Of a stretch of DNA of 64,000 nt, positions 2,148-64,000 are shown piece by piece. The notes beneath the pieces were generated by a model that saw nothing but the letters and a program-made list of their open reading frames with translations, ran no database searches and was not told the DNA's origin. This DNA is from Microglena sp. YARC (Eukaryota > Chlorophyta > Chlorophyceae > Chlamydomonadales > Chlamydomonadaceae). A program made the translations under genes and the position numbers. Numbering within the stretch: position 1 is the stretch's first letter; each line of letters begins with the position of its first letter. The stretch is taken from contig CM039463.1 in assembly GCA_022414725.1 (NCBI GenBank), positions 85,274,738 through 85,338,737 on the forward strand, written 5' to 3'.

Positions 2148-2258
2148 CTGAGAGAAGAGGTGATGGAGGACATGGGTCTCAATGTTGTGGTGGATCTTGT
2201 TGAAGATTCCGAAGTCCCTGTCAATGCTGGACAGGCCACCTCGGAAATATGACCAGGC
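2148..2258 (-). CDS. FAD7: Desaturase exon 8 (histidine box 3)
   Basis: Acceptor AACCTCAG, donor GTTGGT; 37 codons. [16 protein letters not shown] is followed by [17 protein letters not shown] with the third box HVLHH. The family usually has HDIGTH here; this copy has HNIETH. Confidence 0.93.
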
Positions 2259-5200
2259 CTGAGGTTGTGGGTGTGTGAGTGTGAGTGTGTAAGTGTGTGA
2301 GTGTTTGAAAGCATGGTGGGGTTGGGAAGGAGTCGGGAGGAGAGACTGCACCAGACTGTGCCCCCTCCCCCCCCCCCCCCCCCAACAACAACAACAACAA
2401 CAGTGCCCCACCCCCACCCCAAACAACATCAGTGAACCACCACCACCACCTGTACCAGACCCAGCTCAACTCTACCCTCTTCAGCGGCATCTTCTCATTC
2501 TCCTCGCAGGGGCCATGATGGTGGATCCAAATGGAATGGTCCTGGTACTAATGTTAACTGGGCACTTATATTAGGCAGGTTAGAAGACAGAATGGCGAAG
2601 CGTTACAAAAACAATAAGTGATGATCAATGCAAAATCAAAATCACTCCTACAGTCATACTAAGCTCACCTCTCCCCTGTACCCTTTACCATGGCGTCTGC
2701 ACCCCTTACAATGGCATTTGTACCCCTACCTATGTACCATGGCTTCACCTCTCCCCTGTACCAAGGCATCTGTACCCCTACCCCTGTACCCCTGTGCACC
2801 TACCCTTGTACTGTGGCATCTGTACCCCTACCCCTGTACACCTGACCCTGTACCATGGCATCTGTACCCTTACCCCTGTACCATGGCATCAGTACCCCTA
2901 CCCCTGTACCCCTGTGCACCTACCCTTGTACTGTGGCATCTGTACCCCTACCCCTGTACACCTGCCCCTGTACCATGGCATCTGTTCCCTTACCCCTGTA
3001 CCATGGCATCTGTACCACTAACCCTGTACATGTGTCCCTGCCCCATGGCCTCACCTCTCCCCTGTACCCCCACCCCTGTACCATGGCATCTGTACCCCTA
3101 CCCCTGTACCTTGGCCTCACCTCTCCCCTGTACCCCCACCCCTGTACCATGGCATCTGTACCCCTACCCCTGTACCTTGGCCTCACCTCTCCCCTGTACC
3201 CCCACCCCTGTACCATGGCATCTGTACCCCTACCCCTGTACCTTGGCCTCACCTCTCCCCTGTACCAAGGCATCTGCTCCTTCTCGTCGCTAGGGCCGTG
3301 ATGGTGGAGGTAGGTGACAATGTCTAGCCACATCACGCCAATAATGTAAGGAGCAAAGTAGAGGTTCAACATAGCTGGGAGACCCAAGAAGTATGTCAAT
3401 CCCGCCAAAACACCGAGCATGCCGACCATGAAAGCATTCGAAGTCAGAATCTGCAAAGCCAGAAATCCAGGTTAATGGTTAGTGCTGATTGTGGAAGCAT
3501 TTGAGGTCTGAATCTGCACAGCCAGAAATTCGGGGTAAGGTTTACGCCGACCATGATAGCATTCGAAGTCAAAATCTGCAAAGCCAGAAATTTGGGGGTT
3601 GGGGTTTATGCCGAGCTTGAAAGCATTCAAAGTCAAAATCTGCGAAGCCAGAATTTCAGGTTGATGGTTAGTGCTGATCATGGAAGCATTTGAGGCCCGA
3701 ATCCGCACAGCTAGAAATTCGGGGTAAGGTTTATGCCGACCATGATAGCAATCGAAGTCAAAATCTGCGAAGCCAGAAATTCAGGGTTAAGGGTTTATGC
3801 CAACCAAGGAAGCATTTGAGGTCAAAATCTGCCAAGCCAGGAATCCAGGGTTAAGGGTTTATGCCGATCATGGAAGCATTTGAGGTCAAAATCTTCACAG
3901 CCAGAAATTCAGATTCATTGCAGTGAGGAGCATGGACATTGCTTGGTTTGGAATAGGGGAAAAGTGAAACGAGAAGGTAAGGCAGGGTTGCTTTGGTTTG
4001 AAATAGAGGATAAGTGTAACGAAATGGCAGGGCAGGGTTAACAAATGAAGAAGGAACAGCAGGATTTCCGGGGATACACAGGGCATTTCCAGAGCAAGTG
4101 TAGAGGGAATGTCGACAAAACTGACCTTAACTGTAATCACTATCGAGCACGATTATCACACAGTATGTATGTATGTTACAGTCCAATTGTAGGCCAAATG
4201 GGCTTAAGGGACTGGCCCAATCGTAGTGGGAAGGGCTTAAAAGAAAAAGCACTGATGAACTGAACCCCAAACAATAGTTTTACCGACGGGGGCCCTGAGT
4301 TCGTGCGTCAGTGATCATCTAATTCTACACAGATAGACCAGAAATCAAGTGCTGAAAGGAGATACGTGGATATCCATATTTAGGTTGCATTCACGATTAG
4401 GTCGCATTCAAGTTTAGGTAGCATTCAAGTTTAAAGGTTGCATTCACGATTAGGTCGCATTCAAGTTTAGGTTGCATTCAAATTTAGGTTGCTTTCACGT
4501 TTAGGTCGCTTTCACGGTTAGGTTGCATTCTAGTTTAAAGGTTGCATTCACGATTAGGTCGCATTCAAGTTTAGGTTGCATTCAAGTTTAGGGTGCATTC
4601 ACATTTAGGTTGCTTTCACGTTTAGGTCGCATTCACGGTTAGGTTGCATTCAAGTTTAAAGGTTGCATTCACGATTAGGTCACATTCAAGTTTAGGTTGC
4701 ATTCACATATAGGTTGCATTCACGTTTAGGTTGCATTGAAGTTTAGGTTGCATTCAAGTTTAGGGTTGAATTCACAATTAGGTCGCATTCAAGTTTAGGT
4801 AGCATTCACATTTAGGTTGCTTTCACGTTTAGGTCGCATTGAAGTTTAGGTAGCATTCAAGTTTAAAGGTTGCATTCACGATTAGGTCGCATTCAAGTTT
4901 AGGTTGCATTCACATTTAGGTTGCTTTCACGTTTAGGTCGCATTGAAGTTTAGGTTGCATTCAAGTAAAAGGTTGCATTCACGATTAGGTCGCATTCAAG
5001 TTTAGGTTGCATTCACATTTAGGTTGCTTTCACGTTTAGGTCGCATTCACGGTTAGGTAGCATTCAAGTTTAAAGGTTGCATTCACGATTAGGTCGCATT
5101 CAAGTTTACGTTGCATTCACATTTAGGTTGCTTTCACGTTTAGGTCGCATTCAAGTTTAGGTAGCATTCAAGTTAAGGTTGCATTCACGATTAGGTCGCA

Positions 5201-8200
5201 TTCAAGTTTAGGTTGCATTCACATTTAGGTTGCTTTCACGTTTAGGTCGCATTCACGGTTAGGTTGCATTCAAGTTTAAAGGTTGCAATCACGGTTAGGT
5301 CGCATTCAAGTTTAGGTTGCTTTCACGTTTAGGTCGCATTCAAGTTTAGGTTGCATTCAAGTTTAAAGGTTGCATTCACGATTAGGTCGCATTCAAGTTT
5401 AGGTTGCATTCACATTTAGGTTGCTTTCACGTTTAGGTAGCATTCACGGTTAGGTTGCATTCAAGTTAAGGTTGCATTCACGATTAGGTCGCATTCAAGT
5501 TTAGGTTGCATTCACATTTAGGTTGCTTTCACGTTTAGGTCGCATTGAAGTTTAGGTTGCATTCAAGTTTAAAGGTTGCATTCACGATTAGGTCGCATTC
5601 AAATTTAGGTTACATTCACATTTAGGTTGCTTTCACGTTTAGGTCGCATTGAAGTTTAGGTTGCATTCAAGTTTAAAGGTTGCATTCACGATTAGGTCGC
5701 ATTCAAGTTTAGGTTGCATTCACATTTAGGTTGCTTTCACGTTTAGGTCGCATTGAAGTTTAGGTTGCATTCAAGTTTAAAGGTTGCATTCACGATTAGG
5801 TCGCATTCAAGTTTAGGTTGCATTCACATTTAGGTTGCTTTCACGTTTAGGTCGCATTGAAGTTTAGGTAGCATTCAAGTTAAGGTTGCATTCACGATTA
5901 GGTCGCATTCAAGTTTAGGTTGCACTCACATTTAGGTTGCTTTCACGTTTAGGTCGCATTGAAGTTTAGGTTGCATTCAAGTTTAAAGGTTGCATTCATG
6001 ATTAGGTCGCATTCAAGTTTAGGTTGCATTCACATTTAGGTTGCTTTCACGTTTAGGTCGCATTGTAGTTTAGGTTGCATTCAAGTTTAAAGGTTGCATT
6101 CACGATTAGGTCGCATTCAAGTTTAGGTTGCATTCACATTTAGGTTGCTTTCACGTTTAGGTCGCATTGAAGTTTAGGTAGCATTCAAGTTAAGGTTGCA
6201 TTCACGATTAGGTCGCATTCAAGTTTAGGTTGCACTCACATTTAGGTTGCTTTAACGTTTAGGTCGCATTCACGGTTAGGTTGCATTCAAGTTTATAGGT
6301 TGCATTCACGATTAGGTCGCATTCAAGTTTAGGTTGCATTCACATTTAGGTTGCTTTCACGTTTAGGTCGCATTCACGGTTAGGTAGCATTCAAGTTTAA
6401 AGGTTGCATTCACGATTAGGTCGCATTCAAGTTTACGTTGCATTCACATTTAGGTTGCTTTCACGTTTAGGTCGCATTCACGGTTAGGTTGCATTCAAGT
6501 TTAAAGGTTGCATTCACGATTAGGTCGCATTCAAGTTTAGGTAGCATTCACATTTAGGTTGCTTTAACGTTCAGGTCGCATTCACGGTTAGGTTGCATTC
6601 AAGTTTGAAGGTTGCATTCACGATTAGGTCGCATTCAAGTTTAGGTTGCATTCACATTTAGGTTGCTTTCACGTTTAGGTCGCATTCACGGTTAGGTTGC
6701 ATTCAAGTTTAAAGGTTGCATTCACGATTAGGTCGCATTTGAGTTTAGGTTGCATTCACATTTAGGTTGCTTTCACGTTTAGGTCGCATTCAAGTTTAGG
6801 TAGCATTCAAGTTTAAAGGTTGCATTCACGATTAGGTCGCATTAAGTTTAGGTTGCATTCACATTTAGGTTGCTTTCACGTTTAGGTCGCATTGAAGTTA
6901 AGGTAGCATTCAAGTTAAGGTTGCATTCACGATTAGGTCGCATTCAAGTTTAGGTTGCATTCACATTTAGTTTGCTTTAACGTTTAGGTCGCATTCACGG
7001 TTAGGTTGCATTCAAGTTTATAGGTTGCATTCACGATTAGGTCGCATTCAAGTTTAGGTTGCATTCACATTTAGGTTGCTTTCACGTTTAGGTCGCATTC
7101 ACGGTTAGGTAGCATTCAAGTTTAAAGGTTGCATTCACGATTAGGTCGCATTCAAGTTTAGGTTGCATTCACATTTAGGTTGCTTTCACGTTTAGGTTGC
7201 ATTGAAGTTTAGGTTGCATTCAAGTTTAAAGGTTGCATTCACGATTAGGTCGCATTCAAGTTTAGGTAGCATTCACATTTAGGTTGCTTTAACGTTCAGG
7301 TCGCATTCACGGTTAGGTTGCATTCAAGTTTAAAGGTTGCATTCACGATTAGGTCGCATTCAAGTTTAGGTTGCATTCACATTTAGGTTTCTTTCACGTT
7401 TAGGGCGCATTCACGGTTAGGTTGCATTCAAGTTTAAAGGTTGCATTCACGATTAGGTCGCATTTCAGTTTAGGTTGCATTCACATTTAGGTTGCTTTCA
7501 AATTTAGGTTGCATTCACGTTTTGGTCGCATTCACGTTTAGGTCACATTCACGTTTAGGTCGCATTCAAGTTAAGGTTGCATTCACGTTTAGGTCACATT
7601 CACGTTCAAGTATTCAAGTTTACGTCACATTCAAGGCTGCTGGAGATGTCCCCTGCCAGTAAAAATCTGGTAAGAATTTGAAAACTTAAATTTACAAAGT
7701 AAAGTGCAGCAGATATTAGTGTATACTTGCTCAATTGAAGTGCCTAAGCAACCATCTCTCCGTGCTCCTCATCCCCACCACCCCTCCACCAGAACTGACC
7801 ATGTTCTTCACCCCAGATGCTTACAGATCGCCCCAACCACCCCTAAATCACAACTCACCATGTTCTTCTCCCCATGTGCATACAGGTCGCCCCACAACCC
7901 CCTCCACCACAACCAGCACTCACCATGTCCTTCTTGTTGGGTGCATACAGGTTGCAGCTAGGGTCATAGTGCGATCCCACTTTGCCAGGGGAGCGCTTCC
8001 ACAGGTACACAGGGAAGGCCACCAGGGACATGTGAATGGTCAACTTGAACACTAGATCCAAGAAACCAGCACTCACCATGTTCTTCTCATTGGGTGCATA
8101 TAGGTTGCAGCTAGGGTCATAGTTTGACCCCTCCTTGCCCGGGGTGCACCTCCACAGGTAGACAGGGAAGGCCATCAGGGTCATGTGTATGGTCAACTTA

Positions 8201-11200
8201 AGCACATCACCCAAGCAACCAACACTCACCATGTTCTTCTCCCCATGTGCATACAGGTCACCCCCAACACCCCTCCACCACAACCAGCACTCACCATGTT
8301 CTTCTCGCTGGGTGCATACAGGTTGCAGCTAGGGTCATAGTGCGATCCCTCCTTGCCCGGGGAGCGCTTCCACAGGTACGCAGGGAATGCCAGAAGGGCC
8401 CCGGGGATTGTCAAGCGTGCAAAGCTCAGCAGTGGGTCCTGATTGTGTGGGTGGGTGGGGTGGGGTGAGAGGGTGGGGTGGAGTGGGGTGAGAGAGTGGG
8501 TGTGGGGAGGGTGGGTGGGTGGATCGGTGGGTGGGGTGAGGTGTGAGTGGGTCAGTAGTGGGTCCTGATTATGTAAATGTTAGACAAGACAAAACAAGAC
8601 AAGATATACAAGAATACAGACAAGGCAAGACAAGACAGGACATGCTGACTAGACTAGACTGGACAAGACAAGACAAGACAGAAAAAACATGCAAGACAAG
8701 ACAAGACAGAACATACACGGCAAGACAAGACATACATACAAGACAAGACAGAACATATAGACAAGACAAGACGAGGACATACAGACAACACAAGAGAAGA
8801 CAAGACAGACATACAGACAAAACAAGGACATGCAAGCCAAAGCAAGGACATACCAGGGTGTCAAGCTCGGCCTTCTTCACTGGGTACCAAGATTCGTCAT
8901 TCTCACAGTGGCCATGGTTAGCATGGTGGGTGCGGTGGCTGATGCGCCAGCCGTGGTAGGGTACCAAGATAGATGCATGTGTGATGTTGCCCACTAAGTC
9001 GTTCAAAGCGCGGTTGTTGGAAAAGCTCTGGTGCCCACTGCAAGGGTGCATGAGAGAGCATGCCATTAGTGGCATGGTGGGTGCGGTGGCTGATGCGCCA
9101 GCTGTGGGAAGGTACCAAGATAAATGTATGTGTGATTTTGCCCACGGAGTTGCTCAGAGCGCGGTTGTTGGAAAAGCTCTGGTGCCCACTCCAAGGGTAC
9201 ATGAGAGAGCATGTGCTTAGCAGAGGCTATGGTGTGCGTATTTGGGGGGCAGGGAGGGTGGGGTGGGAAGAGGAGGGGATTGCAGTCGTGTAGCTACAGC
9301 TGGTGCCCACTGCAAGGGTTCAGGCAATGGTGTGTATAATTGGGGGGGCAGGGGGGATGGGGTGGGAGGGGGGGGGATTGCAGTCGTGTAACTACAGCTG
9401 GTGCCCACTGCAAGGGTTCAGGCAATGGTGTGTATAATTGGGGGGGCAGGGGGGATGGGGTGGGGAGGGGGGGGGGGGTTGCAGTTGTGTAACTACAGCT
9501 GGTGCCCACTGCAAGGGTTTAGGCAATGGAGTGTATATTTTGGGGGGCAGGGAGGGTGGGGTGGGAAGGGGAGGGGATTGCAGTCATGTAACTACAGCTG
9601 GTGCCCACTGCAAGGGTTTAGGCAATGGTGTGCATGTTTTGGGGGGTAGGGGGGATGGGGTGGGGAGGGGGAGGGGTCATGTAACTACAGCCTTTACACC
9701 TGTAATACACACATACAAGTAAAATTGCACAACTCAGTGCTGACCAAATAGACCCAATGATGATCAGGTAAATCAAGCACACTCGGTGCTGACTGCATGA
9801 TGCACTACGCGCTCATATTTCTCACCAATAATGATATTCCTCACCACTTCTAATATCTCTCGCCACTTCTGATATTCCTCACCACTTATAATATTTCATA
9901 CCACTTCTGATATTCCTCACCACCTCTAATATTTCATACCACTTCTAATATTCCTCACAATTTCCAATATTTCATACCCCTTCTGATATTCCTCACCACT
10001 TCTACTATTTCATACCACATCTGATATTTTCACCACTTCTGATGGCTATTATAGCATTTCTTTTCAACTACGAGCAGCAGCTTTTAAGCAGCTTCCCAGG
10101 CTTTCTCTGCATCTAAACCTTAAGCAAACTAGTGCACCTGGAAGCTACTATCGTCAGCCTTCCAGCTCTCCTAGAATCTTGGGGTTGGCCCAGTGGCAGT
10201 CTCAGAGAGCTGCCTAGGATCTGATGCTTGTAGCCGAAAAGAATAGCAGTGATGGTTATGCCTGCCAAACTTCATGATGAAGCACAGTTGTGTGTGGTAT
10301 CACTAAACTACATTAGGAACCAGAGTTCTGTTTCCTTTTAGAAAGGGGGTCTTCTGGCAGGGATCAGGGATTTGGTATCTTTCAAGGTTGGACTCCCGGT
10401 AGCGATTTGGTAGGGTGACCCACAGGGCTAGCCCGAGGGGTTCAGGGGGTGGGGCAGAGATTCGAGTCTCATGGTAACCGAAACAGTGTCCCAGGTAGCG
10501 ATCGCTACTGGTAGAGGAAAAAGGCTATGGCAAGAGCACCTGACAAAACGACTTACCAGTCATGGCCAACAACAAACAGGCTCCAGAACATGGTACCTTG
10601 CGCGAACCAGTAAATAGGCCAAGCCCACCTACAAGAGACAAAGTGGGAATTCATCAGATTAGAAAACGTTTCAAGGTCATAAGCCATCATGAGCCTGAAC
10701 AATATTTTTGTATTATCTCAAATGGCAGAGAGCTCATGTGCAGGTTTGTGTGCAGGGTACTACATTTTGTCAAATTGGTGAGCGTTTTTTTAATTGGAAA
10801 AAGCGCAAAAAACTGTGTGCTGCGCCCACAGGGGTTTGATAAAACTGCGCGAAACGCGCAGAGGGGCTCAAAAAGTGTGCGCAGAATCGCGCTGCCGCAC
10901 GCACTTTGTAGTACCCTGGTTGTGTGTGCTTGTCTTGGTCTTGGCTGTCCAGCCCACAATAGATAAATGACTGCATGCCTGGCAATAACATAGGAATCAG
11001 CGTCTAAAATCTTGAAGTGTTGAAAGTTGGGCCATACCAGAAACTTGATATTTTCACCCCATTCTTGGGTGTATAGAGGGTACTTGAACATGCAACATAG
11101 AATTTGGACCATCTTCAAACTCTCAATTACAAAAATATTGCAAGGTCAGCTCATAATCAGGGCTAGGAAAGTGGGTTTACTTTATCCAATTTCACATGTA

Positions 11201-13334
11201 AGACCACAAATGGATGGCACTTGTTGAGAGGATCACTATGACCCCCTAATTATAATTGGTGGAGGAGATATGGGCCTCTCAAGCTTGGTGGGTGGGTGGG
11301 TGGGTGGGTGGGTGGGGGGGGAGGGGGCAAATACAAAAAAACAGAGTGTAGGGTGAAGAAAATACTCATAAGACCCCCCTTGCCGCAGACCCACCCAATT
11401 TGCATTGAAACTCGATTACCTACCAAGCATTAATGGCAACAGCTGCCGCCGCAAGTCCAGCCGCAATAGAAACATCCTTAACGAGGTGGAAAACGGACCT
11501 GGGTAAGCAGATGGGTATGACACAGCGATGAGTTTGAGAGGTAAGCATGAAACAACCTTGGTTGTATGGAACAGCAATGAGTATGAGTGGTAAGCATGAA
11601 ACAACCTAGGTCGTATGAAACAGCGATGGGAATGAAACAGCCTGCGTCATATGAAACAGCCTGGGTGGTAAGCTTGAAACAGGGATGGTTATGAAACAGC
11701 ATGGGGTGGTAAGAAACAGCCTGGGTGGTATGAAACAGCCTGGGTGGCATGAAACAGCCTGGGCTGGTAAGTATGAAACAGCGATGGGTATGTAAAAGCC
11801 TGCGTTGTATGAAACAGCCTGGGCTGGTAAGCATGAAACAGCGATGGGAATGAAACAGCCTGCGTCCTATGAATTGCCTGCGTCATATACTCATATGGAA
11901 CAGCTTGAATGGTAAGTAGGGGGCCCACTCAGTGATTCACTTTTTAAGCTACGTGCGGCAGCTTATCGGCAGCTCCGCTGGGCTCTCCATGCAGCCAAAT
12001 CTACCGCAGTCTAGTGCACCTGGACGCTGAGCTCAGCAGTATTCCAAGCCTGCAGAAATCCTGGTGCACATACCAAAGGATGAGCCAAGGAGCTGCGAAG
12101 CTGCTGCTCATGGCTGAAATGAAAAGCATGGCCCAACTGTAGAAGTACTTGCTGCAGATTGCAGTAACCCAACTGGGCCTCCATGCAAGCACTGGGTTAC
12201 AGAACGTAGAAATTGAATTAATTGCTGCAGATCAGTCATGTACTGCCAGAGTGGAGAACACAGCAAGCGCAGGTTCGCCAAGAACAACCCTTGTGGGCCT
12301 GCCTCCGACCCCATGTACTGCCAGAGTGGAGGACACAGCTGACTTGGGTGCACAAACCAAGAACAACCCTAGTAGGCCTGCTCCCAACCTCCTGGCATGA
12401 GAGTTGGGCATCTGGCAACTAGGAGATGACTTGACGTGGCGCGTTGGGAGGGACAACGACGAGTGGCGTGGGATGCAGGCTTCCGTTCAGTCTGAACCTC
12501 CCAGTGTGAACCTCCATGTCGCGCGTGTAACCGACAGTACGGCCGCGGTACAAAGGTTGCCCATGCAACAAACAATCAAACAATCAGGGGCGGTAACAAC
12601 CATGCATTAATGCGTTCGCCTTCCTATTCCATTGGTAACGACTCACTTCAGGGTGCCCTTCTTCCAGCATTGCTCGGGGATAGCACTGCGGATGTCTTGG
12701 AGGGTGAATGGGGGAGGTGCGGACAGGTCGTACGTGCCGTCCTGTGCCACAAAATATAAGGCATTAGCATGCGTATCGGATAAGTAATATATTTCAGCTT
12801 CAGCTTCGAGATGCACTCTTCCGATGCCGATGAGCAGCAGACATAACATCGTATCCAGATCATGGGCCGAATGCAAGCCCTCCGTACACGCACATCAAGC
12901 ACACCATTATGTTGAGTGTCAGGCTACACCCTGTTGGCTCATCTAGTGGTTCGTGAACTACAATCGACAATAGACAATGGATGATGAGGATGAGGATGAG
13001 GAGGATGAGGATGAGGATGAGGATGATGACGACATTTTCCCTGGTGGGCAGAGGGCGCTGTCGACAGGTATCTACCGCTAGTACCGTACCGCGCGCAGCC
13101 AGAGCCCTACTAATATATCAATTATAGTCCCCGTACTCGCTATCTCACCTCCTTCAGCGCAAAACCACGCTCATCGGTCCTACTAGATGTGCTAGTCTCG
13201 ACAGCGGCCGCAGCCAAGGGGTGGGGCTTTGAGCGGACTCCCGAGATCAGACCACCTCCGACCACATTGGGCACCCTGGTGCAGGGAGTCTTCAGCACAG
13301 AAGATCGGCTAGCGATTGAGCGGGAAGTCAACAT
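2148..13334 (-). CDS. FAD7: Plastid omega-3 fatty acid desaturase (FAD7/FAD8-like), 3' end missing
   Basis: Introduces the omega-3 double bond into plastid membrane acyl chains, a di-iron reaction in the chloroplast envelope or thylakoid. Eight exons join in phase: 13334-13149, 12741-12647, 11498-11424, 10628-10557, 9037-8854, 8438-8295, 3450-3253, 2258-2148, giving about 355 residues. All inner borders are GT-AG. Family marks in order are a Ser/Arg/Ala-rich transit-like N-terminus, [37 protein letters not shown], box 1 HDCGH, box 2 HRTHH inside [64 protein letters not shown] and box 3 HVLHH. APPPF and SPGK.GSHY favour the plastid omega-3 branch over Delta-12 FAD2. No frameshift is seen. The following 30-60 residues expected after LFSQ are not in the window. 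Introns are filled with satellites and copied exon edges. Confidence 0.9.
2466..2530 (-). pseudogene. Diverged copy of the exon 7 3' end
   Basis: Reads [13 protein letters not shown] then WYR before GTGG, resembling [17 protein letters not shown] of exon 7, with about nine extra residues between MP and WYR. It sits in the exon 7-8 intron. Either a relic of an older exon duplication or an alternative exon. Confidence 0.6.
2690..3290. repeat. Minisatellite made from the exon 7 donor edge
   Basis: About a dozen degenerate units contain the complement of CCTTGGTACAGGGG, the codons for PWYRG. The four nearest exon 7 (3,040-3,270, period about 67 bp) also keep the donor GAG/GTGAGG. The minus frame of exon 7 stays open through the array to about 2,920. 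Confidence 0.9.
3253..3450 (-). CDS. FAD7: Desaturase exon 7
   Basis: Acceptor CTTTGCAG, donor GTGAGG; 66 codons from [10 protein letters not shown] through [14 protein letters not shown] to PWYRGE. It contains a hydrophobic membrane segment. Both of its borders are embedded in tandem copies of themselves. Confidence 0.93.
3428..3910. repeat. Tandem copies of the exon 7 acceptor edge
   Basis: About eight units of roughly 60 bp, each with the complement of TTTGCAG followed by the first 25-30 bases of exon 7 (ATTCTGACTTCGAATGC and variants). Only the copy at 3,450 continues into the full exon. Confidence 0.9.
4163..4308 (-). mobile_element. LINE 3'-tail copy
   Basis: Reverse-strand copy of the tail behind the reverse-transcriptase remnant (39,842-39,997): AACTCAGGGCCCCCGTCGG ... 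GGCCTAC ... GGACTGTAACATAC, ending in a short CATA run. 5'-truncated. Confidence 0.8.
4385..7640. repeat. 3.3-kb TTTAGGTTGCATTCAC satellite
   Basis: A long array of 15-17-bp units (AGGTTGCATTCACGTTT and variants TCGCATTCAAG, TTGCTTTCACG) arranged in higher-order units of about 105-125 bp. It fills most of the intron between desaturase exons 6 and 7. No coding content. Confidence 0.97.
7797..8297 (-). repeat. Copies of desaturase exon 6 and its donor edge
   Basis: Downstream of exon 6 are two longer copies (about 8,080-8,200 and 7,925-8,045) encoding AFPVYLW..(S/T)PGK.GS.YDP and YAPN.K.M, each with donor GTGAGT, and three short copies of only the last 25-35 bases (near 8,232, 7,858 and 7,800). 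The longer copies have no AG where exon 6 has its acceptor. They are decoys or decayed exons. Confidence 0.9.
8295..8438 (-). CDS. FAD7: Desaturase exon 6
   Basis: Acceptor CAATCAG, donor GTGAGT; 48 codons. Contains [19 protein letters not shown] and ends YAPSEKNM. Its 3' edge and donor are copied repeatedly downstream. Confidence 0.92.
8575..8850. repeat. ACAAG-type simple array
   Basis: Degenerate run of ACAAGACAAGACAGA units in the intron after exon 5. G-rich GGGTGG repeats occupy about 8,445-8,560. No gene content. Confidence 0.9.
8854..9037 (-). CDS. FAD7: Desaturase exon 5 (histidine boxes 1-2)
   Basis: Acceptor CCTTGCAG, donor GTATGT; one base plus 61 codons. Contains [33 protein letters not shown] and ENDESW, all diagnostic of the family. 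Confidence 0.93.
9068..9199 (-). pseudogene. Truncated duplicate of desaturase exon 5
   Basis: Carries an AG acceptor and about 45 codons similar to exon 5 ([26 protein letters not shown]), but YHGW is changed to SHSW and the copy stops before the 3' half and donor. It is a decayed acceptor-side duplicate. Confidence 0.88.
9285..9690. repeat. Array of the exon 5 acceptor junction
   Basis: Four units of about 100 bp. Each holds the complement of CCCTTGCAG/TGGGCACCAG, the exact exon 5 acceptor with the first ten exon bases, plus a G-rich spacer. Confidence 0.88.
9820..10050. repeat. CTCACCACTTCTGATATTC tandem repeat
   Basis: About ten units of 19-21 bp in the intron between exons 4 and 5. The sequence 9,690-9,820 shows nothing recognisable. 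Confidence 0.9.
10052..10247. mobile_element. Fold-back MITE, copy A
   Basis: Terminal inverted repeats of about 40 bp: TTTCAACTACGAGCAGCAGC on the left and GCTTGTAGCCGAAAAGAA on the right are imperfect reverse complements. The same ends recur at 11,938, 34,218 and 62,391. No transposase. Neighbouring intron sequence (10,250-10,556 and 10,629-11,423) holds nothing else recognisable except a GGGT run at 11,290-11,325. Confidence 0.8.
10557..10628 (-). CDS. FAD7: Desaturase exon 4
   Basis: Acceptor TTGTAG, donor GTAAGT. Encodes [20 protein letters not shown]; the next Cys codon is split TG/T across the intron, completing histidine box 1 (HDCGH) with exon 5. Confidence 0.92.
11424..11498 (-). 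CDS. FAD7: Desaturase exon 3
   Basis: Acceptor TTACCCAG, donor GTAGGT. Encodes [19 protein letters not shown], which matches the family's first membrane segment. Both ends are split codons that fit their neighbours (AA/G = Lys, TG/G = Trp). Confidence 0.85.
11505..11935. repeat. Array related to the exon 3 acceptor
   Basis: About ten units of roughly 20-45 bp with GAAACAGCCTGGGTGGTAAGC. The complement, GCTTACCACCCAG, matches the exon 3 acceptor GCTTACCCAG, so the array seems seeded by that splice site. Confidence 0.75.
11938..12128. mobile_element. Fold-back MITE, copy B
   Basis: Ends TTTTTAAGCTACGTGCGGCAG and GCTGCTGCTCATGGCTGAAAT pair as terminal inverted repeats, and the inner AGTCTAGTGCACCTGGA is shared with copy A. 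About 190 bp. A two-copy repeat (CATGTACTGCCAGAGTGGAG) follows at 12,237-12,390. Confidence 0.8.
12647..12741 (-). CDS. FAD7: Desaturase exon 2
   Basis: Acceptor GCACAG, donor GTGAGT; 31 codons plus two bases. Encodes [20 protein letters not shown], the conserved segment before the first transmembrane part of plastid omega-3 desaturases. Confidence 0.9.
12978..13030. repeat. GAGGAT microsatellite
   Basis: Run of GATGAGGATGAGGA units in desaturase intron 1. Confidence 0.9.
13149..13334 (-). CDS. FAD7: Desaturase exon 1 (transit-peptide-like start)
   Basis: 62 codons from an ATG at 13,334 to KE before donor GTGAGA. The N-terminus [17 protein letters not shown] is rich in Ser, Arg and Ala with few acids, as in algal plastid transit peptides. 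An in-frame stop lies upstream, so this is the first available Met. Phase 0 to exon 2. Confidence 0.75.
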
Positions 13335-13684
13335 AGTGGGCAGAGATATGGCCGGACGTGCTCTGCGGCGCTTAGGAAGCTTTAGTTCATTAGTATCTAG
13401 GGCTCGGGGGGTTCATGTTGTAAACGACAGCTAGGTCCACGACATAGGTGGATGGCAGTGCGCGCGCGCTCCACAAGTTGAGACCAGAGTTGAGACCAGA
13501 GTTGAGACTGAGTTGAGACGCCCCCGATGGGCCACGTGAGCGCAGCGTGGCGTGGCTTGGCGCGGCGTAGAAGTTCAGGGGGGCGGTGAGGGGGGGCGCG
13601 GTGGGGGGCGCGACGCGAAGGACATCTGTTGGCAAGTCCTAAGCGCGTGTCGCAAGCGACACGGAAAACGCATCAGCAGTCACA
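13335..13684 (-). other. Sequence upstream of the desaturase start
   Basis: Expected 5' UTR and promoter area. It contains three GTTGAGACCAGA-type repeats (13,475-13,520) and a GC-rich stretch. No TATA box or other element can be supported. Confidence 0.4.
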
Positions 13685-13743
13685 GGGTTTAGGGTTTAGG
13701 GTTTAGGGTTTAGGGTTTAGGGTTTAGGGTTTAGGGTTTTTTT
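13685..13743 (+). repeat. Interstitial telomeric repeat (TTTAGGG), array 1
   Basis: About eight perfect TTTAGGG units, the plant and green-algal telomere motif, directly joined to copy 1 of the 3.0-kb duplicated segment. Confidence 0.97.
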
Positions 13744-13807
13744 GGGCCTCAGGAGGGTCCAGAGGGGGCTAAAGCGAAAACCTGGCGCTTGTGTTTGAAA
13801 CGCGCTC

Positions 13808-13812
<5 letters not shown>

Positions 13813-13893
<81 letters not shown>
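13813..13893. repeat. (GA)n microsatellite
   Basis: About 40 GA units in copy 1; copy 2 (17,041-17,098) has about 29. Confidence 0.98.
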
Positions 13894-13894
<1 letters not shown>

Positions 13895-13951
13895 AACCGC
13901 CGCAACTACCGTAACGTGGACAGGGATCGTAGGGGACTCAATTCACGCTAT

Positions 13952-13985
<34 letters not shown>

Positions 13986-14240
13986 TGGTGAGCAGCCTGA
14001 ATGCTGGTACCGCATTACCGGTATTCATTCATTATTAATAATAGTATTGAATGCTAGCAGAATGCTAGTACCCAATTATGTAGGTATGTACCGTAATAGT
14101 ACAAAACATGCACTGTAACAGTACAAAACACGCACACAACAAGTTTTCCCTTCGTTCTCTGTTATTTAGGTGACTCTCGCGTCAGGACATGGGGCAATGC
14201 CTGTCTGGGACTCAACTGCCAAGGAGACATAAGCACAATT

Positions 14241-14452
14241 GTATGTATGTATGTATGTATGTATGTATGTATGTATGTATGTATGTATGTATGTATGTAT
14301 GTATGTATGTATGTATGTATGTATGTATGTATGTATGTATGTATGTATGTATGTATGTATGTATGTATGTATGTATGTATGTATGTATGTATGTATGTTA
14401 CAGTCCAGGGGTAGGCCAAATAGGCTAAAGGGTCTTTCCCTGGACTGTAACA
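14241..14452 (-). mobile_element. Expanded CATA tail and 3' end of a LINE copy
   Basis: About 39 ATGT units (14,241-14,397) are followed by TTACAGTCCAGGGGTAGGCC, the reverse strand of the LINE 3' end. The array is therefore best read as an expanded LINE poly-CATA tail. A second, opposite tail (CCCTGGACTGTAACATAC) follows at once and makes an inverted repeat with 15-nt arms. Copied at 17,447-17,648. Confidence 0.8.
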
Positions 14453-15257: not shown

Positions 15258-15320
15258 GCTGAGGCGTGAGGTTGAGGGGGGAAGCCCGTTTGCTTGCACA
15301 GGGGCCCAACCGCCATTGGA
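15258..15320 (+). repeat. Dispersed GAGGCGTGAGGTTGAGG element
   Basis: Shares GCGTGAGGTTGAGGG ... CGTTTGCTTGCAC .. GGGGCC.AACC with 18,455-18,515, 29,706-29,768 and, reversed, 44,272-44,332. A short interspersed repeat of unknown class. Confidence 0.7.
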
Positions 15321-28828: not shown

Positions 28829-31800
28829 CTGTGGGGCAGCACATCCGTGTAATTAAATAAATAAATAAATAAATAATTAATTAATTAAATAAACAAATGA
28901 AAATAGACACATATCTCACGTGAGATAAATAGACACATGAGATAAATAAATAAATAAATAAATAAATAAAAAATTAAATAAACAAATGAAAATAGACACA
29001 TATCTCACATGAGAAAATGACAAATGAGATAATAATAAAAACAAATCAAATAATATACATTCATAAATAAATAAATATCTTATACATGAGATGAATGAAT
29101 AAAGAAATAAATAAACAAATAAATACATTCAAAAATGAATAAATATCTTATACATGAGATGAATGAATAAATATCTTATACACGAGATGAATGAATAAAT
29201 AAAGAAAGAAACAAATAAATACATTCATAAATAAATATCTTATACATGAGATGAATGAATAAATAAATAAAGAATAAATAAATACATTCATCAAATAATA
29301 ATATAAAATAATCTTATACATGAGATTGAATGAATTAAATAAATAAATAAACAAATTAAATACATTCATAAATAAATAAATATCTTATACATCAGATGAA
29401 TGAATAAATAAATAAAGAAACAGATAAATAAATACATTCATAAATAAATAAATATCTTATACATGAGATGAAGAAAAATAAATAAAAAACAGAAATAAAT
29501 ACATTCATAAATAAATAAATATCTTATACATGAGATGAATGAATAAATATATAAAGAAACAAATAAATACATTCATAAATAAGTAAATATCTTATACATG
29601 AGATGAATGAATAAATAAATAAAGAAACAAATAAATACATTCATAAATAAATAAATATTTTATACATGAGATGAATGAATAAATAAATAAATAGTATGCC
29701 TTATTACGAGGTGTAAGGTTGAGGGGGCCAGTCCGTTTGCTTGCATTGGGGCCAACCACCAAATCAATCCATGTACTCAATGGCTGACCATGTTTTAGAA
29801 AGTTGAGGTCTGGTGTTCAAATCCCCCCAGCTCCACTTTCAACAAAATCGGAAGCAAATTGAAAAAGCTTCTCTCTTTAGAACCTCAAGATCATCCCCCT
29901 GTAAGCGTGTAGCGTACACAGCGTTATGCAAGAGGGTGTTTGTGACTCATGGCGCCCATAAATGTTAATCGACCGATGCCCCAGTGTATAACCCGTAATA
30001 CACCCCTGTTACCCGTAATACACCACCCAGGACGAACACTAAAAATTAAACAAGCACTCATCTGTTCCCAGCAAAATCATATGGAATGCTAATTAAAATG
30101 TGCGCCCTAGGCACTTCTCCTTGCGTCCACCGACACCCTTCTTATTGTGGTTGGGGGTTGGTGGGTGGTTGGGGGTGAGGGGTGGGGGAGTGTGAGTGTG
30201 AGTGTGAGTGTGAGTGTGAGTGTGCAAAGTTAGGGGGTCTTTGGCTGGTCTCTGGCACCCTTTCTGCACCCTATGGCACCCCTCTCACCTATAATGCACC
30301 CTTCAGCAGCAAATAAAAATGGTGCCGAAGGCGTAGTACACCCCCACTCACAGTACATACCACACCCACACCCACACCCACCTTACAACCACATCCACAG
30401 TAACCACAACCACATCTCCACAGTACACCCACACCACACCCACAAAACACCACACCACACACCCACCATAACGCCGCACCCGACACCCACACCCACAGTA
30501 CAAACAACACCCGAAAACCCAACAGAAACACCACAACCACACACCACAATTAACACCACACCCACACCCACATAACGCCAGCACCCCACACCCACACCCA
30601 CAGTACACCACACCCAAACCCACAGAACAACCACACCACACCCACAGTAAACCAACACCCCACAACCACAGAACACCACTCCCCCACCCACAGTACACCA
30701 CACCCACAGTACATCACACCACAACCACAACCACAACCACCAGCAGCAACAATAAATTCAAATTCAAAATTCTTTAGCATGCAAACCACCAGGCAGCATA
30801 AATTAAAATTAAAATTAAAATTAAAAAAAGGCATAGAGCCACACCCATTTGCTCGTCGTCCTTCTTCTTTCTGCGGCGGAACAGGCAAAATGCAAACCAC
30901 CAGCAGCAGCAGGAATTCAAATTCAGATTCAAATTCAAATAAAAGGCGTGGAGCCACACCCACCTGCTCATCCCTCTTCTTCTTTCGGCGGCGGAACAGG
31001 CCACATGCAAACCACCAGCAGCAGCAGGAATTCAAATTCAAATTCAAATAAAAGGCTTAGAGCCACACCCACTTGCTCATCATCCTTCTTCTTTCGGCGG
31101 CGGAACAGGCCACATGCAAACCACCAGCAGCAGCAGGAATTCAAATTCAAATTCAAATAAAAGGCTTAGAGCCACACCCACTTGCTCATTGTCCTTCTTC
31201 TTTCGGCGGCGGAACAGGCCACATGCAAACCACCAGCAGCAGCAGAAATTCAAATTCAAATTCAAATAAAAGGCTTAGAGCCACACCCACTTGCTCATCG
31301 TCCTTCTTCTTTCTGCGGCGGAACAGGCCACATGCAAACCACCAGCAGCAGCAGAAATTCAAATTCAAATTCAAATAAAAGGCTTAGAGCCACACCCACT
31401 TGCTCATCGTCCTTCTTCTTTCTGCGGCGGAACAGGCCACATGCAAACCACCAGCAGCAGCAGAAATTCAAATTCAAATTCAAATAAAAGGCTTAGAGCC
31501 ACACCCACTTGCTCATCCCTCTTCTTCTTTCGGCGGCGGAACAGGCCACATGCAAACCACCAGCAGCAGCAGAAATTCAAATTCAAATTCAAATAAAAGG
31601 CTTAGAGCCACACCCACTTGCTCATCGTCCTTCTTCTTTCGGCGGCGGAACAGGCCACATGCAAACCACCAGCAGCAGCAGCAAGTCAGTGCAAGTAGAG
31701 CGAAGAAGCCCCCAACAGCTACACCGACGATCAACCCAATGTTGGCCTCGTCACCACCACCCTCCATTTTGGCAGGCGCCACCTCAGGCAGGATGGGGGA

Positions 31801-34800: not shown

Positions 34801-37800
34801 GGGGGTCATGGGAAGAACTCTCCGGGTCCACTGTAAAGTCCAGGTTGTAGCTGGAAGCGATGATGCAAGCGACGTTGACCTGGGCATGGAGGAGTCTCAG
34901 GCAAAGGGGTCAGGCAGGGGGGTTGCCACCGGAGCCATGCCAAGCCAAGCCAAGCCAAGCCAAGCCAAGCCAAGCCAAGCCAAGCCAAGCCAAGCCAAGC
35001 CAAGCCAAGCCAAGCAAAACAAAGCTTAGCTAAGCCAAATAAAGCCAGGCCAAGCCAAGCCAAGCCTTGCAGCAGGTTAATTAGCAGGATCGCCTAATAA
35101 ATGTTGCAGTATGCAACATCAAATCAAATCAAATAATAATATATATACATATATAATATATATAAAACATAATAAATGTATATATATGTACAAAAAAACT
35201 CAATACCTCTTGTAGTAGAGAACGCCGACCACCATCGTTGAGTCTTCGCCTTGCTGCAGGCTCGTTAGCAGGATCACCAGCAGGATTACAATCCACACTT
35301 ATGTTGGGTACGGGTAAGCCAAGCAGCGCTACCAGATTCAGCACCTCATTGATAAGTGTTTCCTGCAGTTACCGAGGGGCACTGTTTTTAGTGCTGACAT
35401 CAGCTGTCTGTTTTTTGCGGAGCCCCCCCCTTCTGGGGAGCGGGAGCCCTCAGCCCAGGGTAGGGCCCAGGGCAAGGTCACCCCGTTGTCCGATGTCCGT
35501 CCGTCCGACCGACCGGCGACCGACCCTAGACGAAGCCTGACACGGCAGCCGACTGTCTCGTAACTAACTGGCTTCAGTCCGCTCGATTCCCTCACCTGGC
35601 CAACATTGTCCGCCAATTTTCCGCGTCGCTTGCAACGCCGATTAGGATTTGTTACTCTGGAGCTGGAGCGTGGAACTCTAAGCGATACCTGGACGTGATG
35701 CGTAGAAGTTGGGTACTCGTACTCGACTTGAGTAATCATAAGGTGGAGTCGTTTTAGAACAACACTCACATATTTGCAGTCAGCAGCCCGGCTGGAGCGG
35801 GGAACGCTAAACGATGCCTAGTCATTTCTATAAGAGATTGAGAACAAAAAACGATTAATAACCAGGCAGCTTCATAACAACACTCACATCTTTGCAGTTA
35901 GCAGCCCGGCTGGAGCGGGGAACAGTAAACGATGTCTGGACATTTCTAGTAGATATTGAGTACACAACTCCGGGCACAACGGGTAACTCATCCACGCTTT
36001 CGAGGAACCTGAGGGGGTTGAAGTGTGGAAACGTTTTCTGGTGGTGGTAGTGGTTGTGGTGTGTGTGTGTGCAGTGTGTGGTGGTGTGTGTGGTAGTGCG
36101 TGCGGATCTTGGTTGCATGGCCCCAGCCTTTAAGGCTGCTCACCTGTTAATAGAAGCTGTGAACAATGTCATGAGGGGGTTGAAGTGTGGAAACGTTTTC
36201 TGGTGGTGTGTGTGGTGGTGTGTGTGGCAGTGCGTGCAGATCGTGGTTGCATGGCCCCAGCCTTTAAGGCTGCTCACCTGTTAATAGAAGCTGTGAACAA
36301 TGTCATGAGGGGGTTGAAGTGTGGAAACGTTTTCTGGTGGTGTGTGTGGTGGTGTGTGTGGCAGTGCGTGCAGATCGTGGCTGCATGGCCCCAGCCTTTA
36401 AGGCTGCTCACCTGTTAACGCAAGCAGTGAACAGCAGCATGACGGGGTTGAAGTGTGGAAACGTTTTCTGGTGGTGGTGGTGGTGTGGTGGTGTGGTGGT
36501 GGTGTGTGTGTGTGTGTGTGTGTGTGTGGTGGTGGTGTGTGTGTAGTGCGTGCGGATCTTGGTTACATGGTCCCATACTGTAGGGTAGCTCACCTGTTAG
36601 CCGAAGCTGTGAACAATGGTGCTGGGGGGTGAAGAGTGGAAACGTTTTCTGGTGGTGGTGGTGGTGTGTGTGTGTGGTGTGTATGCGTGCAGTGTGTGTG
36701 GTGGTGTGTGTGGTAGTGCGTGCGGATCTTGGTTACATGGCCCCAGCCATGAATGCTGCTCACCTGTTTACTGAAGCTGTGAACAATGGCACTGGGGCCA
36801 ACCCGAGGGGTGTGGTGGGAGGGGGAGGGGCATCACCTAGAGGAGCCACACAGGGCGTGCCTAGCGTGGTGCCATCAGACACTACGGTGGCTCCAGTGGT
36901 GGGGAGGTCACCACAGAGTTCGGTGTTGAAGGCGAGGGTGAGGAATTGAAGGGCGGCCATGCCAGCAGGGGCCGTGGCGGTCCATGAGGGGGGGAGGGAG
37001 GAGGTCAAGCGATTGCTAGCCAGGTTCAGGTCAGTCAGGTGACTGAGGGAGCTCCAGGCATCTGGGAGTGACCCTGCGGGAAAAAGTGTAGAAATAGTTA
37101 TAGCGAGAAACGATATGAGAAGGTAAAGAAAGAAACTTGAGGCAGTACTTGGCAGTACAGCAAAAAGCCAAAATGAGCCGTGAGCATAAGGACAGCCCAG
37201 GTGGATCGCAGTGGAGATTAAGACCAGTAACTTGAGGCAGTACTAGGCAGTACAGCAAAAAGTCCAGGTGGATCGCAGTGGGATTTAAGACCAGTAACTT
37301 GAGGCAGTACTAGGCAGTACAGCAAAACATCCAGGTGGATCGCAGTGGGATTTAAGACCAGTTACTTGAGGCAGTACTAGGCAGTACAGCAAAAAGTCCA
37401 GGTGGATCGCAGTGGGATTTAAGACCAGTAACTTGAGGCATTACTAGGCAGTACAGCAAAAAGTCCAGGTGGATCGCAGTGGGAATTAAGACCAGTAACT
37501 TGAGACAGTACTAGGCAGTACAGCAAAAAGTCCAGGTGGATCGCAGTGGAGATTAAGACCAGTAACTTGAGGCAGTACTAGGCAGTACAGGAGAAATCCC
37601 AGGTGGATTGCAGTGGGAATTAAGACCACTAACTGCGTGACTTCTAAAAGAAAGAGGTTCCTAAGATCTGGGAGAGATCCTGTGGGAATCAGGAATGGAT
37701 GATGTACTTTTCTTCCGCATGGTGAAGGTGATGGTGGTTTAGGGTTCAGGGTTTAACAACACAAAGCTGTTGGAGTAGATGGTATACCTGCTGAGTTCTA

Positions 37801-49105: not shown

Positions 49106-49234
49106 GCAGCAACAGCAACAGCAACAACAAGACAAATCGCACAGGGGACTTAGGATTGGGAGACGGTGAGCAGCCCAGAGTTACATGAGAAACCGCGTTA
49201 CAATCCAATCTGATCCAGTATTCCGATCGAATTG

Positions 49235-50513: not shown

Positions 50514-50552
<39 letters not shown>

Positions 50553-53500
50553 TTCCTCCCCCCCACACACAGCGTTTCAACCAGCGTGATGTGAACTGGC
50601 CCTGCAGGGTCTAGGGGATGGATGGGGCGTTGTTTGTTTGTGTTTAGGATTTTTGGCGGAGCTCTCCAATATGAAGTGCGAGAGCCCCCAGATTCAACCT
50701 GTTGTCCGACAACCGACAGACCAAAGACAGAGACAAAGCCTGACACGTTAGCCAACTGTCTCATAACTAACTAGCTTTGGTCAGCTCCATTCAGTTGCCA
50801 CCTGTCGTTCAGTTGCCAACACTCTCAGCCAATTTTCCGCGACGCTTGTGACGCTGCATATGACTTGTCACCCCGGAAGGAAGTGGGACCCCGTGCACAA
50901 AACAGCGCCCACTAAGGAGTCAGAAATAAAGGCGGAGCAAGACCCACAGACGTACGAACTTCATGTCTCATGGATTTGCTTGATTAAGGATACGATAGGC
51001 AACGTCTAATGTAATGGATGAGTATTTCCCCATGCTGACCTTACATGAACAGTGACTAATGACAAGATTGTGAACAGATGTTGACAATGCTAAATATAAG
51101 TAGATGATCAGATGTTTCCTGAACTTTAGCGCAGGTGGCGCAGGCCGAAGGCCTTCGGTCGACATCGAACCCTCAAGTATCGTGGCTCCACAACCAGTGT
51201 TACCAGTGTAACATTGGAGGAAACGCCACTGTTTTGGAAATTGAGTTTATATTACGAGACGGTTGTACGGATGCTGATGCCATATGACGTTTTTGAACAT
51301 TGTTAGAATATGCTAAATGCCGAAGAGTTGGTATGATGAAGATACCTGAAATATTCATCAATATATTTATAATAGTAACGATTTGTGTCTTTTAAATTTA
51401 AGTTAAATCACATGCAGAGCACGAACTCCAGGCCCCCGAAGTTTAACATGTGTTGGGGGGTCAGTTCACCACTGCTTGTTTTGTATACAGCCCTATCAAA
51501 TATTGAGGTTGGGCAAGTCAATTTAGCCTATGCGTACACGCCTTTACCTGCTAGATGATTACAATTTTCCTGGTGCCCTACTGGACTCCAAATGTGCCCT
51601 TGGCTTGACAGGCACCCAGATACTCAGGCATGCACCCATGAGCAGAGCCGCATGCTTTTTGCATGCACCGATATAATGTTTTGTTGACACATAGCACGAA
51701 GCACACCCTGAGCATTGCAGGTCGTTGTCAACCGCGATGGTAGCTTGTCCAGTTGAGGTAGAAGACCGCTCTCTACCCGCGTACGACGGGTTCCCTTAAT
51801 ACCACGCCTCACCAGGCGTTATCATTACCTCATCAAGCACTTGTCTTTCTTTGAAGGGGGGCATAATACAAATCGGACGGGTCCTGGGGCGTCTGAAAAA
51901 AACACACATGCTAGATAGTCAATATACTTTTGTCTGCAACACGTCGCCATTCCGTTGCTGCATGGCAACGCATGGATCCAGCTAAACTAGTCAGATATGC
52001 CCCTCAAACACCCCGGGCTCCAGGGTAGGCAGGATTTGGGGGCAGCGCGTCGCACTGGGGTCACAACGAGTCGCTCAATTTGCGATGCGTCGCACGAAAC
52101 AAAATTTGATCGATGTGCTTGTCAACCCAGCTGTTCCCGACAGTCTATAATTGTCTTGATCAGTTACATGGGATGGGTCAGTCCATACTGATTAATTGGC
52201 TACCCCTGGACTGTAACCTGCAGGGATAGCCAATTAAACCTATACCCTAAAAACCCTAAACCCTAATTGGCTACCCCTGCACTGCATACATCTAAATAGG
52301 CAGGACAATACACTGTGAGCAGTGCATCGTGATCCTAACAAAGATGACTGGCTCCTAAGATGCTCCTGGATTGTTTGAGGTCGGGCATTTCCCTTCAGCC
52401 TGTTTGGCTACCCCTGGACTGTACCATACACACATGGTAACCCCCAGCCCCCCACCCCCACCCCACCCCACCCACCCACCCATCTCAGCCCTCAGCGCGC
52501 ACCCCATCCCATCCCACCCCATTGAGTCCCACCCCATCTCAGCTCATCCCATCCCATTGCACCCTACCCATCCCATCTTATCCCATCCTAGCCACTCCCG
52601 CAACTGATCACCAGCTTGCGCTGAGCATTGCCCCCCCCCCCCCCCCCCCTCCCTCCCTCGGCCTCAAGCCCCCAGCCTAGCCCAGCCCAGCCACACTCTC
52701 AACGGATCACCAGCTCGCTCTCAAGAATGCATCCCCCCCACCCCCACCCTTCGTCTCCCCCCCCCTCCGCCCCCATCCCCATCTTGACCTCAGTGAAGGT
52801 CTCTTCAGGCACACTCATACTTATTGTCATTATTGCCTCACCCCATCCCATCCCATTGCATCCCAACTTCCACCCACCCGCCCTCATCCCCACCTTCATC
52901 TCAGAGAAGGGCTCTTCCGGCACACTCATAATTGTCTTCCATGAAGCAGCGTCCTCCTCCTCCACATGACCAAAAACGGTGAAGGATCCTGTCCACTCTT
53001 CATGAACTCCTTTAGCTATAAAGAACTGGCAAGGTGGGAAGGTTAAGGGTTTAGGGTTTAGGGTGGAGAAGCCTGCCCACTCCTCATGGCCTCCTTTAGC
53101 TATGAAGAACTGTCCAGGTGGGAGGGTTTAGGGTTTAGGGTTTAGGGTTTAGGGTGGAGGAGCCTGTCGACTCCTCATGACCTCCTTTCTATATATAAAG
53201 AACTGGCCAGATGTGAGGGAGAGAGAGAGAGGAAGAGGGAGACACTTAGTAAATTCACATCGTGCAATTATCACAATACATCATACGATATACTAAGCGA
53301 TATACCATTATGTCATTAGGGTTGGGCCGACATGTAAACGTATAATATACGTCTACACGTTAATACGTATAATATACGTCTACACGTTAATACGAATAAA
53401 TACGACTACACGTTTATACGTATAAAATACGTCTACACGTTAATACGTATAAATACGTCTACACGTTTATACGTATAAAATACGTCTACACGTTAATACG

Positions 53501-63217: not shown

Positions 63218-64000
63218 GCGGAGCCCGGGGGGGTTGCGGGGGCATTTCTGACTAGATTAGTCGGACCCATGCGTCGCCATGACTGGTCGCACAAAACAAA
63301 GATGGTCAGGGGCATTCTCATCTCAGGGACTGGCTCATTCCTGTAGAAAATAAACTATAGAAGGGAGGAGCCCGGGGGGGTTGCGAGGGCATTTGTGACT
63401 AGATTAGTCGGACCCATGCGTCGCCATGACTGGTCGCACAAGACAAAGATGGTCAGGGGCATTCTCATCTCAGGGACTGGCTCATTCCTGTAGAAAATAA
63501 ACTATAGAAGGGCGGAGCCCGGGGGGTTGCGGGGCATTTCTGACTAGATTAGTCGGACCCATGCGTCGCCATGACTGGTCGCACAAAACAAAGATGGTCA
63601 GGGGCATTCTCATCTCAGGGACTGGCTCATTCCTGTAGAAAATAAACTATAGAAGGGCGGAGCCCGGGGGGGTTGCGGGGGCATTTCTGACTAGATTAGT
63701 CGGACCCATGCGTCGCCATGACTGGTCGCACAAAACAAAGATGGTCAGGGGCATTCTCATCTCAGGGACTGGCTCATTCCTGCAGAAAATAAACTATAGA
63801 AGGGAGGAGCCCGGGGGGGTTGCGGGGGCATTTCTGACTAGATTAGTCGGACCCATGCGTCGCCATGACTGGTCGCACAAAACAAAGATGGTCAGGGGCA
63901 TTCTCATCTCAGGGACTGGCTCATTCCTGTAGAAAATAAACTATAGAAGGGCGGAGCCCGGGGGGGTTGCGGGGGCATTTCTGACTAGATTAGTCGGACC
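63176..64000. repeat. ~148-bp array of the FYRNEP donor edge
   Basis: Six units to the window end. Each has the complement of TTTCTACAGGAATGAGCCAG + TCCCTGAG, where the donor GT has become AT, plus GGACCCATGCGTCGCCATG from the dispersed element. A more diverged copy lies at 62,890-62,935. Confidence 0.93.

Follow-up and report, generated by a model that had tools for sequence, protein, structure and literature searches.

Introns of Microglena sp. YARC carry, beside half of the splice junctions sampled, tandem copies of their own working exon borders, and these copies lie within the intron, decay in a nearly neutral way, form arrays that overlap junctions more often than random placement predicts, and tend to be youngest next to the border in use. 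We propose, with a probability of about 0.5, that introns in this genome are fed from their borders by serial tandem duplication at the working border, the copies being displaced inward.

Results

Genome, window and gene sample

The assembly comprises 568 Mb in 2390 contigs, and the window (the whole stretch of DNA that was analysed, 64,000 nucleotides) is 47.7% tandem repeat as called by Tandem Repeats Finder at a score of at least 50. With so much of the window under repeats, some exon borders would be overlapped by chance alone, which calls for a null model. The gene sample consisted of the desaturase gene of the window, chosen because of the finding, and of PRP8 and BRR2, two conserved genes located elsewhere in the same genome and picked without regard to repeats. 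Together these three genes have 40 introns and 80 junctions, which is a small sample; the array tests used 39 of the 40 introns (78 junctions), one intron of less than 250 bases having been dropped.

PRP8 was found through family PF10596, and 200 kb around its locus were analysed. Splice-aware protein alignment gave 20 exons and 19 introns, 19/19 of them GT-AG, with no frameshift or inserted codon, by an aligner that accepts only GT or GC donors and AG acceptors and that left the start of the protein uncovered. The lack of frameshifts and inserted codons indicates, on protein homology as the sole basis, that the copies sit within single introns. The second half of PRP8 was best matched by an 8xi2 chain, which we take to be from Chlamydomonas reinhardtii; for the first half, a 9r8v chain ranked top by summed score, with one part matched twice, and 8xi2 scored higher in two long stretches. 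These matches point to a probable chlamydomonadalean green alga. Upstream of PRP8, a gene that appears kinesin-like by eye (∼72-89 kb of the joined stretch, L011-L030) has apparent repeated exon starts (VDIVTAEK and VNIVTAEK).

BRR2 was found through PF02889 and analysed over 50 kb. Its alignment gave 24 introns, of which eight doubtful ones were omitted and two were merged into one, leaving 15 introns up to about residue 1338; a further 16 kb examined held no match to the second half of the protein. Sec63 matches lie on the other strand ∼0.17 Mb off the first half of BRR2 (G000:C1, 155.604-155.67 Mb and 155.799-155.806 Mb), for which a scaffold inversion, a paralogue and a very long intron are candidate explanations.

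Junction copies within and beyond the window

Pseudo-junction copies that passed an exon-side check were present in the adjoining intron at 40 of the 80 junctions in the three genes. Arrays of the kind named in the original prediction are real and occur outside the window as well. In PRP8, 17 of 38 junction windows (6 donors, 11 acceptors) had, within 3 kb, a copy at 80% identity or better; among windows in the intron interior the share was 31.7% (n = 4468) and among exon windows 6.9% (n = 727), so that junction-centred 30-base windows exceed the PRP8 intron interior only modestly.

The desaturase exons, all on the minus strand, were mapped by splice-aware alignment against a FAD3 protein sequence. 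Exon 1 lies at 12647..12744, and its ORF matches PF11960, presumably a desaturase domain; the following exons are exon 2 (11424..11498), exon 3 (10557..10628), exon 4 (8854..9037), exon 5 (8295..8438) and exon 6 (3253..3450). Introns 1-6 have 12 junctions, and in the 30-base copy test clear arrays lay at four of them, namely (i) at the acceptor of exon 4 (9038..9676, pseudo-junctions 9188, 9309, 9407, 9508 and 9607), (ii) at the donor of exon 5 (7773..8294, pseudo-junctions 8229, 8076, 7923, 7858 and 7799), (iii) at the acceptor of exon 6 (3451..3910, unit of ∼63 bases) and (iv) at the donor of exon 6 (2676..3252), where the 66-base units adjoining the exon are identical in the compared intron part. 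A fifth junction, the acceptor of exon 5, has one 80% copy in this test, which detected no junction copies in introns 1 and 2. The stricter array test described below spans 3 of the 12 junctions, the donor of exon 6 not among them. About two thirds of intron 5 is filled by a 3.2 kb array of a TTTAGGTTGCATTCACG unit (window 4378-7606).

The LRR gene of the window, which has LRRNT_2 and LRR domain matches, has copies at four functional junctions (donors 31617, 36763 and 33766 and acceptor 34015), all placed from reading frame and splice signals and not by a homologue. On the minus strand, the end of the transmembrane exon, its donor (first intron base 31617) and the start of the intron form 8 copies with a period of 109 at 30778..31688. 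A donor array at 33089..33861 contains the functional donor 33766 with copies at 33575, 33417, 33259 and 33089; an acceptor array at 34015..34886 contains the functional acceptor 34015 (first exon base) with copies at 34163, 34541 and 34879; and another donor array, at 36074..36797, contains the functional donor 36763 with copies at 36593, 36411, 36277 and 36143. Within the same region, a 72-base unit is repeated five times at 97% identity (41377-41745); 72 bases equal 24 codons, about one leucine-rich repeat, and this is possibly an in-frame duplication inside an exon. Three adjoining ORFs on the plus strand, opposite to the LRR gene (37902-38699, 38700-39191 and 39192-39809), also lie in this region; the first has a reverse-transcriptase-like YADD stretch and resembles a non-LTR element by eye, and a Pfam search of 38700-39188 gave no match at E 0.01.

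The third gene of the window has a cyclophilin-type PF00160 match at 52702-53127 with E = 0.022, below the family cut-off, and its assignment as at best cyclophilin-like is weakly supported. It contains repeats at 52988..53207 on the minus strand, a Tandem Repeats Finder interval. Of the more than 20 exon borders in three genes that had been predicted, eight (4 desaturase, 4 LRR) were checked singly and have copies. Elsewhere in the window, near-identical direct copies ∼3.2 kb apart, with common ORFs and microsatellites, occupy ∼13.7-16.1 kb and 16.8-19.3 kb, and a tandem-repeat stretch at 54093-55955 lies in a region of only 22% G+C.

Arrays span junctions in excess of random placement

Arrays were defined through self-comparison at an offset of 30-600 bases and an identity of at least 75%, and in the null model each array was placed randomly with its own length and unit. 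Indeed, 31 of 47 arrays span a junction versus 13.0 expected, with 0 of 20,000 random draws as high, which bears out for the three genes the predicted excess of junction overlap over random placement. At 82% identity 18 of 29 arrays are spanning (7.6 expected), and at 90% 4 of 8 (1.3 expected, p 0.02). Counted by junction, 32 of 78 are spanned, and 16 purely intronic arrays occupy the remaining 44.4 kb of intron (0.36 per kb). The spanned junctions number 12/38 in PRP8, 17/28 in BRR2 and 3/12 in the desaturase gene, against a naive expectation from intronic array density of 1.4, 1.8 and 0.8, respectively. Array units of similar length also occur away from junctions, in introns as well as in other DNA; the density was 0.33-0.59 arrays per kb in stretches of other DNA, in the PRP8 gene region and in the window, and 0.86 per kb in the BRR2 gene region. 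Recognisable border arrays account for 17.7 of the 62.2 kb in the 39 introns.

Short windows were also compared after matching for complexity. Copies of at least 93% identity were found for the first 30 exon bases at 44% of 32 acceptors and for the last 30 exon bases at 32% of 28 donors; at a looser threshold of 87%, which allows for two evolving copies, the figures were 20% of 2122 windows for intron interior free of exon-derived stretches and 23% of 7165 for other DNA. Windows lying wholly in the intron beside donors had copies no more commonly than deep intron, and those beside acceptors exceeded deep intron at 80% identity and not at 87% or 93%; this test covered PRP8 and the desaturase gene and, being ungapped, is weakened by the many gaps that intron-derived sequence contains. 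Easier detection of spanning arrays through their conserved exon parts was rejected as the main cause of the excess: of 24 such arrays whose units have 45 or more intronic bases, 20 are detectable from the intron part alone. Two coding ends (the PRP8 stop and the BRR2 start) were not spanned, which are too few to tell.

Unit phase and decay of the copies

The arrays had been predicted to sit exactly on borders, and this did not survive measurement: between 8 and 141 bases of a unit are exon sequence, with a roughly random phase relative to the junction. Across 44 junctions with a spanning repeat, phase is spread as for random placement (KS p 0.12); a second alignment scoring, with 39 junctions, gave p 0.011 and a skew to small exon parts. 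Unit phase is thus not perfectly uniform, yet it has no anchor at the splice site. Our own impression from array extents of a fixed junction anchor in mid-unit was dropped after exon share had been measured on the 44 junctions.

In aligned examples, the copies match their own exon edge. The splice dinucleotide (GT or AG) is retained in 96 of 102 pseudo-copies of the three mapped genes, and in 68/71 and 106/111 aligned pairs; the prediction that one copy is kept while the others decay therefore applies to the surrounding bases and not to the splice dinucleotide itself. In the exon-derived part, working and pseudo-copies differ by 0.079 substitutions per site (71 pairs) and pseudo-copies among themselves by 0.125 (111 pairs), from which the working copy appears to change at about a quarter of the pseudo-copy rate. 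The corresponding values for the intron-derived part are 0.140 and 0.152. Gaps per 100 columns amount to 1.0 (working-pseudo) and 3.9 (pseudo-pseudo) in the exon-derived part and to 10.9 and 12.8 in the intron-derived part. This divergence pattern agrees with a working copy under purifying selection and other copies that decay almost neutrally.

An age gradient toward the working border

Among 18 arrays of at least three copies, compared over the intron part of the unit, 13 have their highest similarity in the pair to which the working junction belongs, where 6.4 would be expected (permutation p 0.0001). A stricter version, from which the outermost pair was dropped and, at acceptors, the last 40 intron bases were excluded, left 13 arrays, 9 of which had the working pair on top, with one tie, against 4.5 expected (p 0.001); taken separately, donors gave p 0.017 and acceptors p 0.027. 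Donors and acceptors agree even though the working copy occupies opposite ends of the array. In BRR2, for example, similarities run 0.99, 0.91, 0.90, 0.77 and 0.77 at an acceptor and 0.93, 0.86 and 0.70 at a donor. In 15 arrays taken together, the nearest copy is less distant from the working copy (0.193) than from the later ones (0.302).

Constraint on the working copy appears insufficient to produce this gradient, since relative rates in the intron part of 15 arrays are 0.087 for the working copy and 0.106 for the nearest copy (p 0.03); the slightly slower working copy adds a little to it. Ascertainment bias was simulated and rejected as the source: under uniform birth and the same filters, the mean difference was 0.003-0.013, at most 0.013, versus 0.098 observed. 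Bias at array edges was controlled through use of the unit's intron part and removal of the outermost pair, and was likewise set aside.

When 30-base windows on the junction are compared instead, only 9 of 24 arrays have the nearest copy strictly as the closest match, and at donors 1 of 9 does. The window's own arrays are of mixed polarity: of the 7 with at least three copies, one of which is also among the 18 above, 1 has a working pair that is strictly the youngest, 3 have a tie and 3 have another pair as the youngest. The array at 33766-33089 has a clear gradient (0.98, 0.84, 0.79, 0.77), and the array at 36763 has none. Taken over the three genes, enrichment and gradient support a bias toward working borders.

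Alternative explanations

The account that competes most directly, which we consider rather unlikely, holds that tandem duplication strikes everywhere without bias and that purifying selection does the rest: exon-internal duplications are lost, intronic or single-border ones survive, and border arrays persist since the constrained copy cannot be deleted. The similar-length units in introns and other DNA, at the densities given above, and the unanchored phase are both as this account would have them. We simulated it with random tandem duplications, rejection of exon changes, intron decay, deletion and slippage, and the same detection pipeline; the intron-length list of the two later runs and of the repeat-exchange simulations omitted the one intron over 6 kb. 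The simulations yield more spanning arrays than random placement, with pooled observed/expected ratios of 1.4-2.1 (0.96-2.04 in the first run) versus 2.38 in the real data, a value reached by 1 of 48 and 3 of 112 replicates; by this measure, the excess at junctions is real but not overwhelming. The fraction of arrays that span a junction is farther from the data, being 0.24-0.33 pooled in one run and 0.26-0.38 in another, with a highest single replicate of ∼0.51, versus 0.66 observed (6/29, 15/56, 24/62 and up to 33/78 in the first run of 40 loci per setting). Further, where the simulated intronic density is 0.28 per kb, the share of junctions spanned is only 0.09; the real genes have 0.41 at 0.36 per kb. 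A variant in which repeat-mediated contraction and selection together trap arrays at borders was rejected, because spanning and interior arrays came near the observed 32:16 in none of the eight settings evaluated (32:69 without exchange and 31:42 at low exchange; 2:24, 14:22, 2:8, 18:61, 8:22 and 3:4 in other settings); with repeat-mediated exchange, spanning relative to intronic arrays reached ∼3:4 at best, the largest set of this kind giving 31:42. Unbiased duplication also predicts no age gradient toward the working copy. We infer that the excess reflects a bias in the birth of copies and not survival alone.

Such a bias could arise if breaks or copies were made at working borders by something linked to splicing or transcription (R-loops, polymerase pausing or RNA-templated repair). 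In favour of this, the pseudo-copies are similar in sequence to the working copy and mostly have an intact GT or AG, yet they serve less often as a source, so that sequence alone does not seem to set the source; the unit ends, however, have no fixed relation to the splice site, and since the copies hold contiguous exon and intron, spliced RNA was not the template. We judge it improbable. That copies are kept by selection, e.g., as spare or decoy splice sites, might be read from the retention of GT or AG reported above, but the windows by which copies were found include these dinucleotides, neighbouring exon-derived bases are kept nearly as well (0.91-0.92), and pseudo-pseudo divergence is close in exon- and intron-derived parts (0.125 and 0.152); selection on pseudo-copies is not needed to explain the data, and we regard it as very improbable. 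An assembly artefact comes to mind with 2390 contigs, dense repeats and some window copies identical over the compared part. Most copies in the mapped genes, however, diverge from one another by between several and tens of per cent and match the edge of their own exon, a pattern that mis-joining of reads would not produce, and we attach hardly any weight to this explanation.

Discussion

Serial duplication at the working border would proceed as follows. A segment of ∼60 to 300 bases straddling a working exon-intron border would be duplicated in tandem; at a donor the first copy, and at an acceptor the last, would stay in use, leaving the protein unchanged and making the new copy part of the intron. 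Duplication would recur preferentially at the working border and push older copies inward, where, free of constraint, they would lose similarity and dissolve into ordinary intron. As a guess, the molecular step may be misaligned copying in break or replication repair, with the break or stall, or one end of the event, on the exon side. Exon definition is a principle that would let splicing tolerate intact decoys, and it may be through it that the spliceosome ignores the copies.

Because working and pseudo-copies share sequence and the working copy is preferred, context is implicated, be it chromatin, transcription, splicing or mere adjacency to the exon. The original prediction of a process that begins at splice sites is thus partly supported: the enrichment and the gradient of the intron part favour a bias to working borders, but a start at the splice site itself does not follow from them, given that unit ends are unanchored and similar arrays occur elsewhere. 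A broader proposition, namely that a genome-wide duplication process recognises working borders by status rather than by sequence and provides, from these borders inward, a large part of the intron DNA, is one that we put forward tentatively and hold to be somewhat doubtful.

Transposons and random insertion are the usual explanation of why introns lengthen. Should the borders themselves supply the material, each copy would date a step of intron growth, and it would become testable what marks a working border for duplication. The genome would also offer a natural experiment in the choice of splice sites, since single introns would hold several donors or acceptors that are near-perfect, and the annotation of such genomes is at risk, as pseudo-exon edges resemble coding sequence.

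No published account of systematic junction arrays was recognised in the literature searched, which is weak evidence as that coverage was partial. Several known systems resemble the arrays in part. Introner elements are intron sequences that have spread genome-wide and are common to many introns. The genome-wide spread of intron sequence is a likeness; unlike introners, which share sequence between introns, the units described here match their own exon edge, with copies having been sought within a few kb of the junction. Among minisatellites, MS32 has a strong one-ended polarity. The arrays are minisatellite-like in their head-to-tail units of tens to hundreds of bases and in an age gradient to one end, and differ in that the favoured end is a working exon border, at either end of the intron and at many loci at once. 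For MS32 and CEB1, repeat gain is described under a model of SDSA repair (PMC2599865). Intron sliding and tandem splice sites (PMC2891723) likewise place several usable-looking splice sites close together, whereas the spacing here is mostly 60-300 bases and the copies of the exon edge are long. Further parallels come from duplication as a source of introns: a tandem genomic duplication in a potato RdRp gene repeats the upstream intron-exon structure (PMC4974935), and novel intron positions in Drosophila have tandem duplication as a source (PMC2891723). As in these cases, a tandem copy carries exon sequence together with splice signals; those, however, are individual cases, each giving rise to a new intron or intron position, whereas in the alga the mapped gene retains its intron, the extra copies are intronic and about half of the tested junctions are affected.
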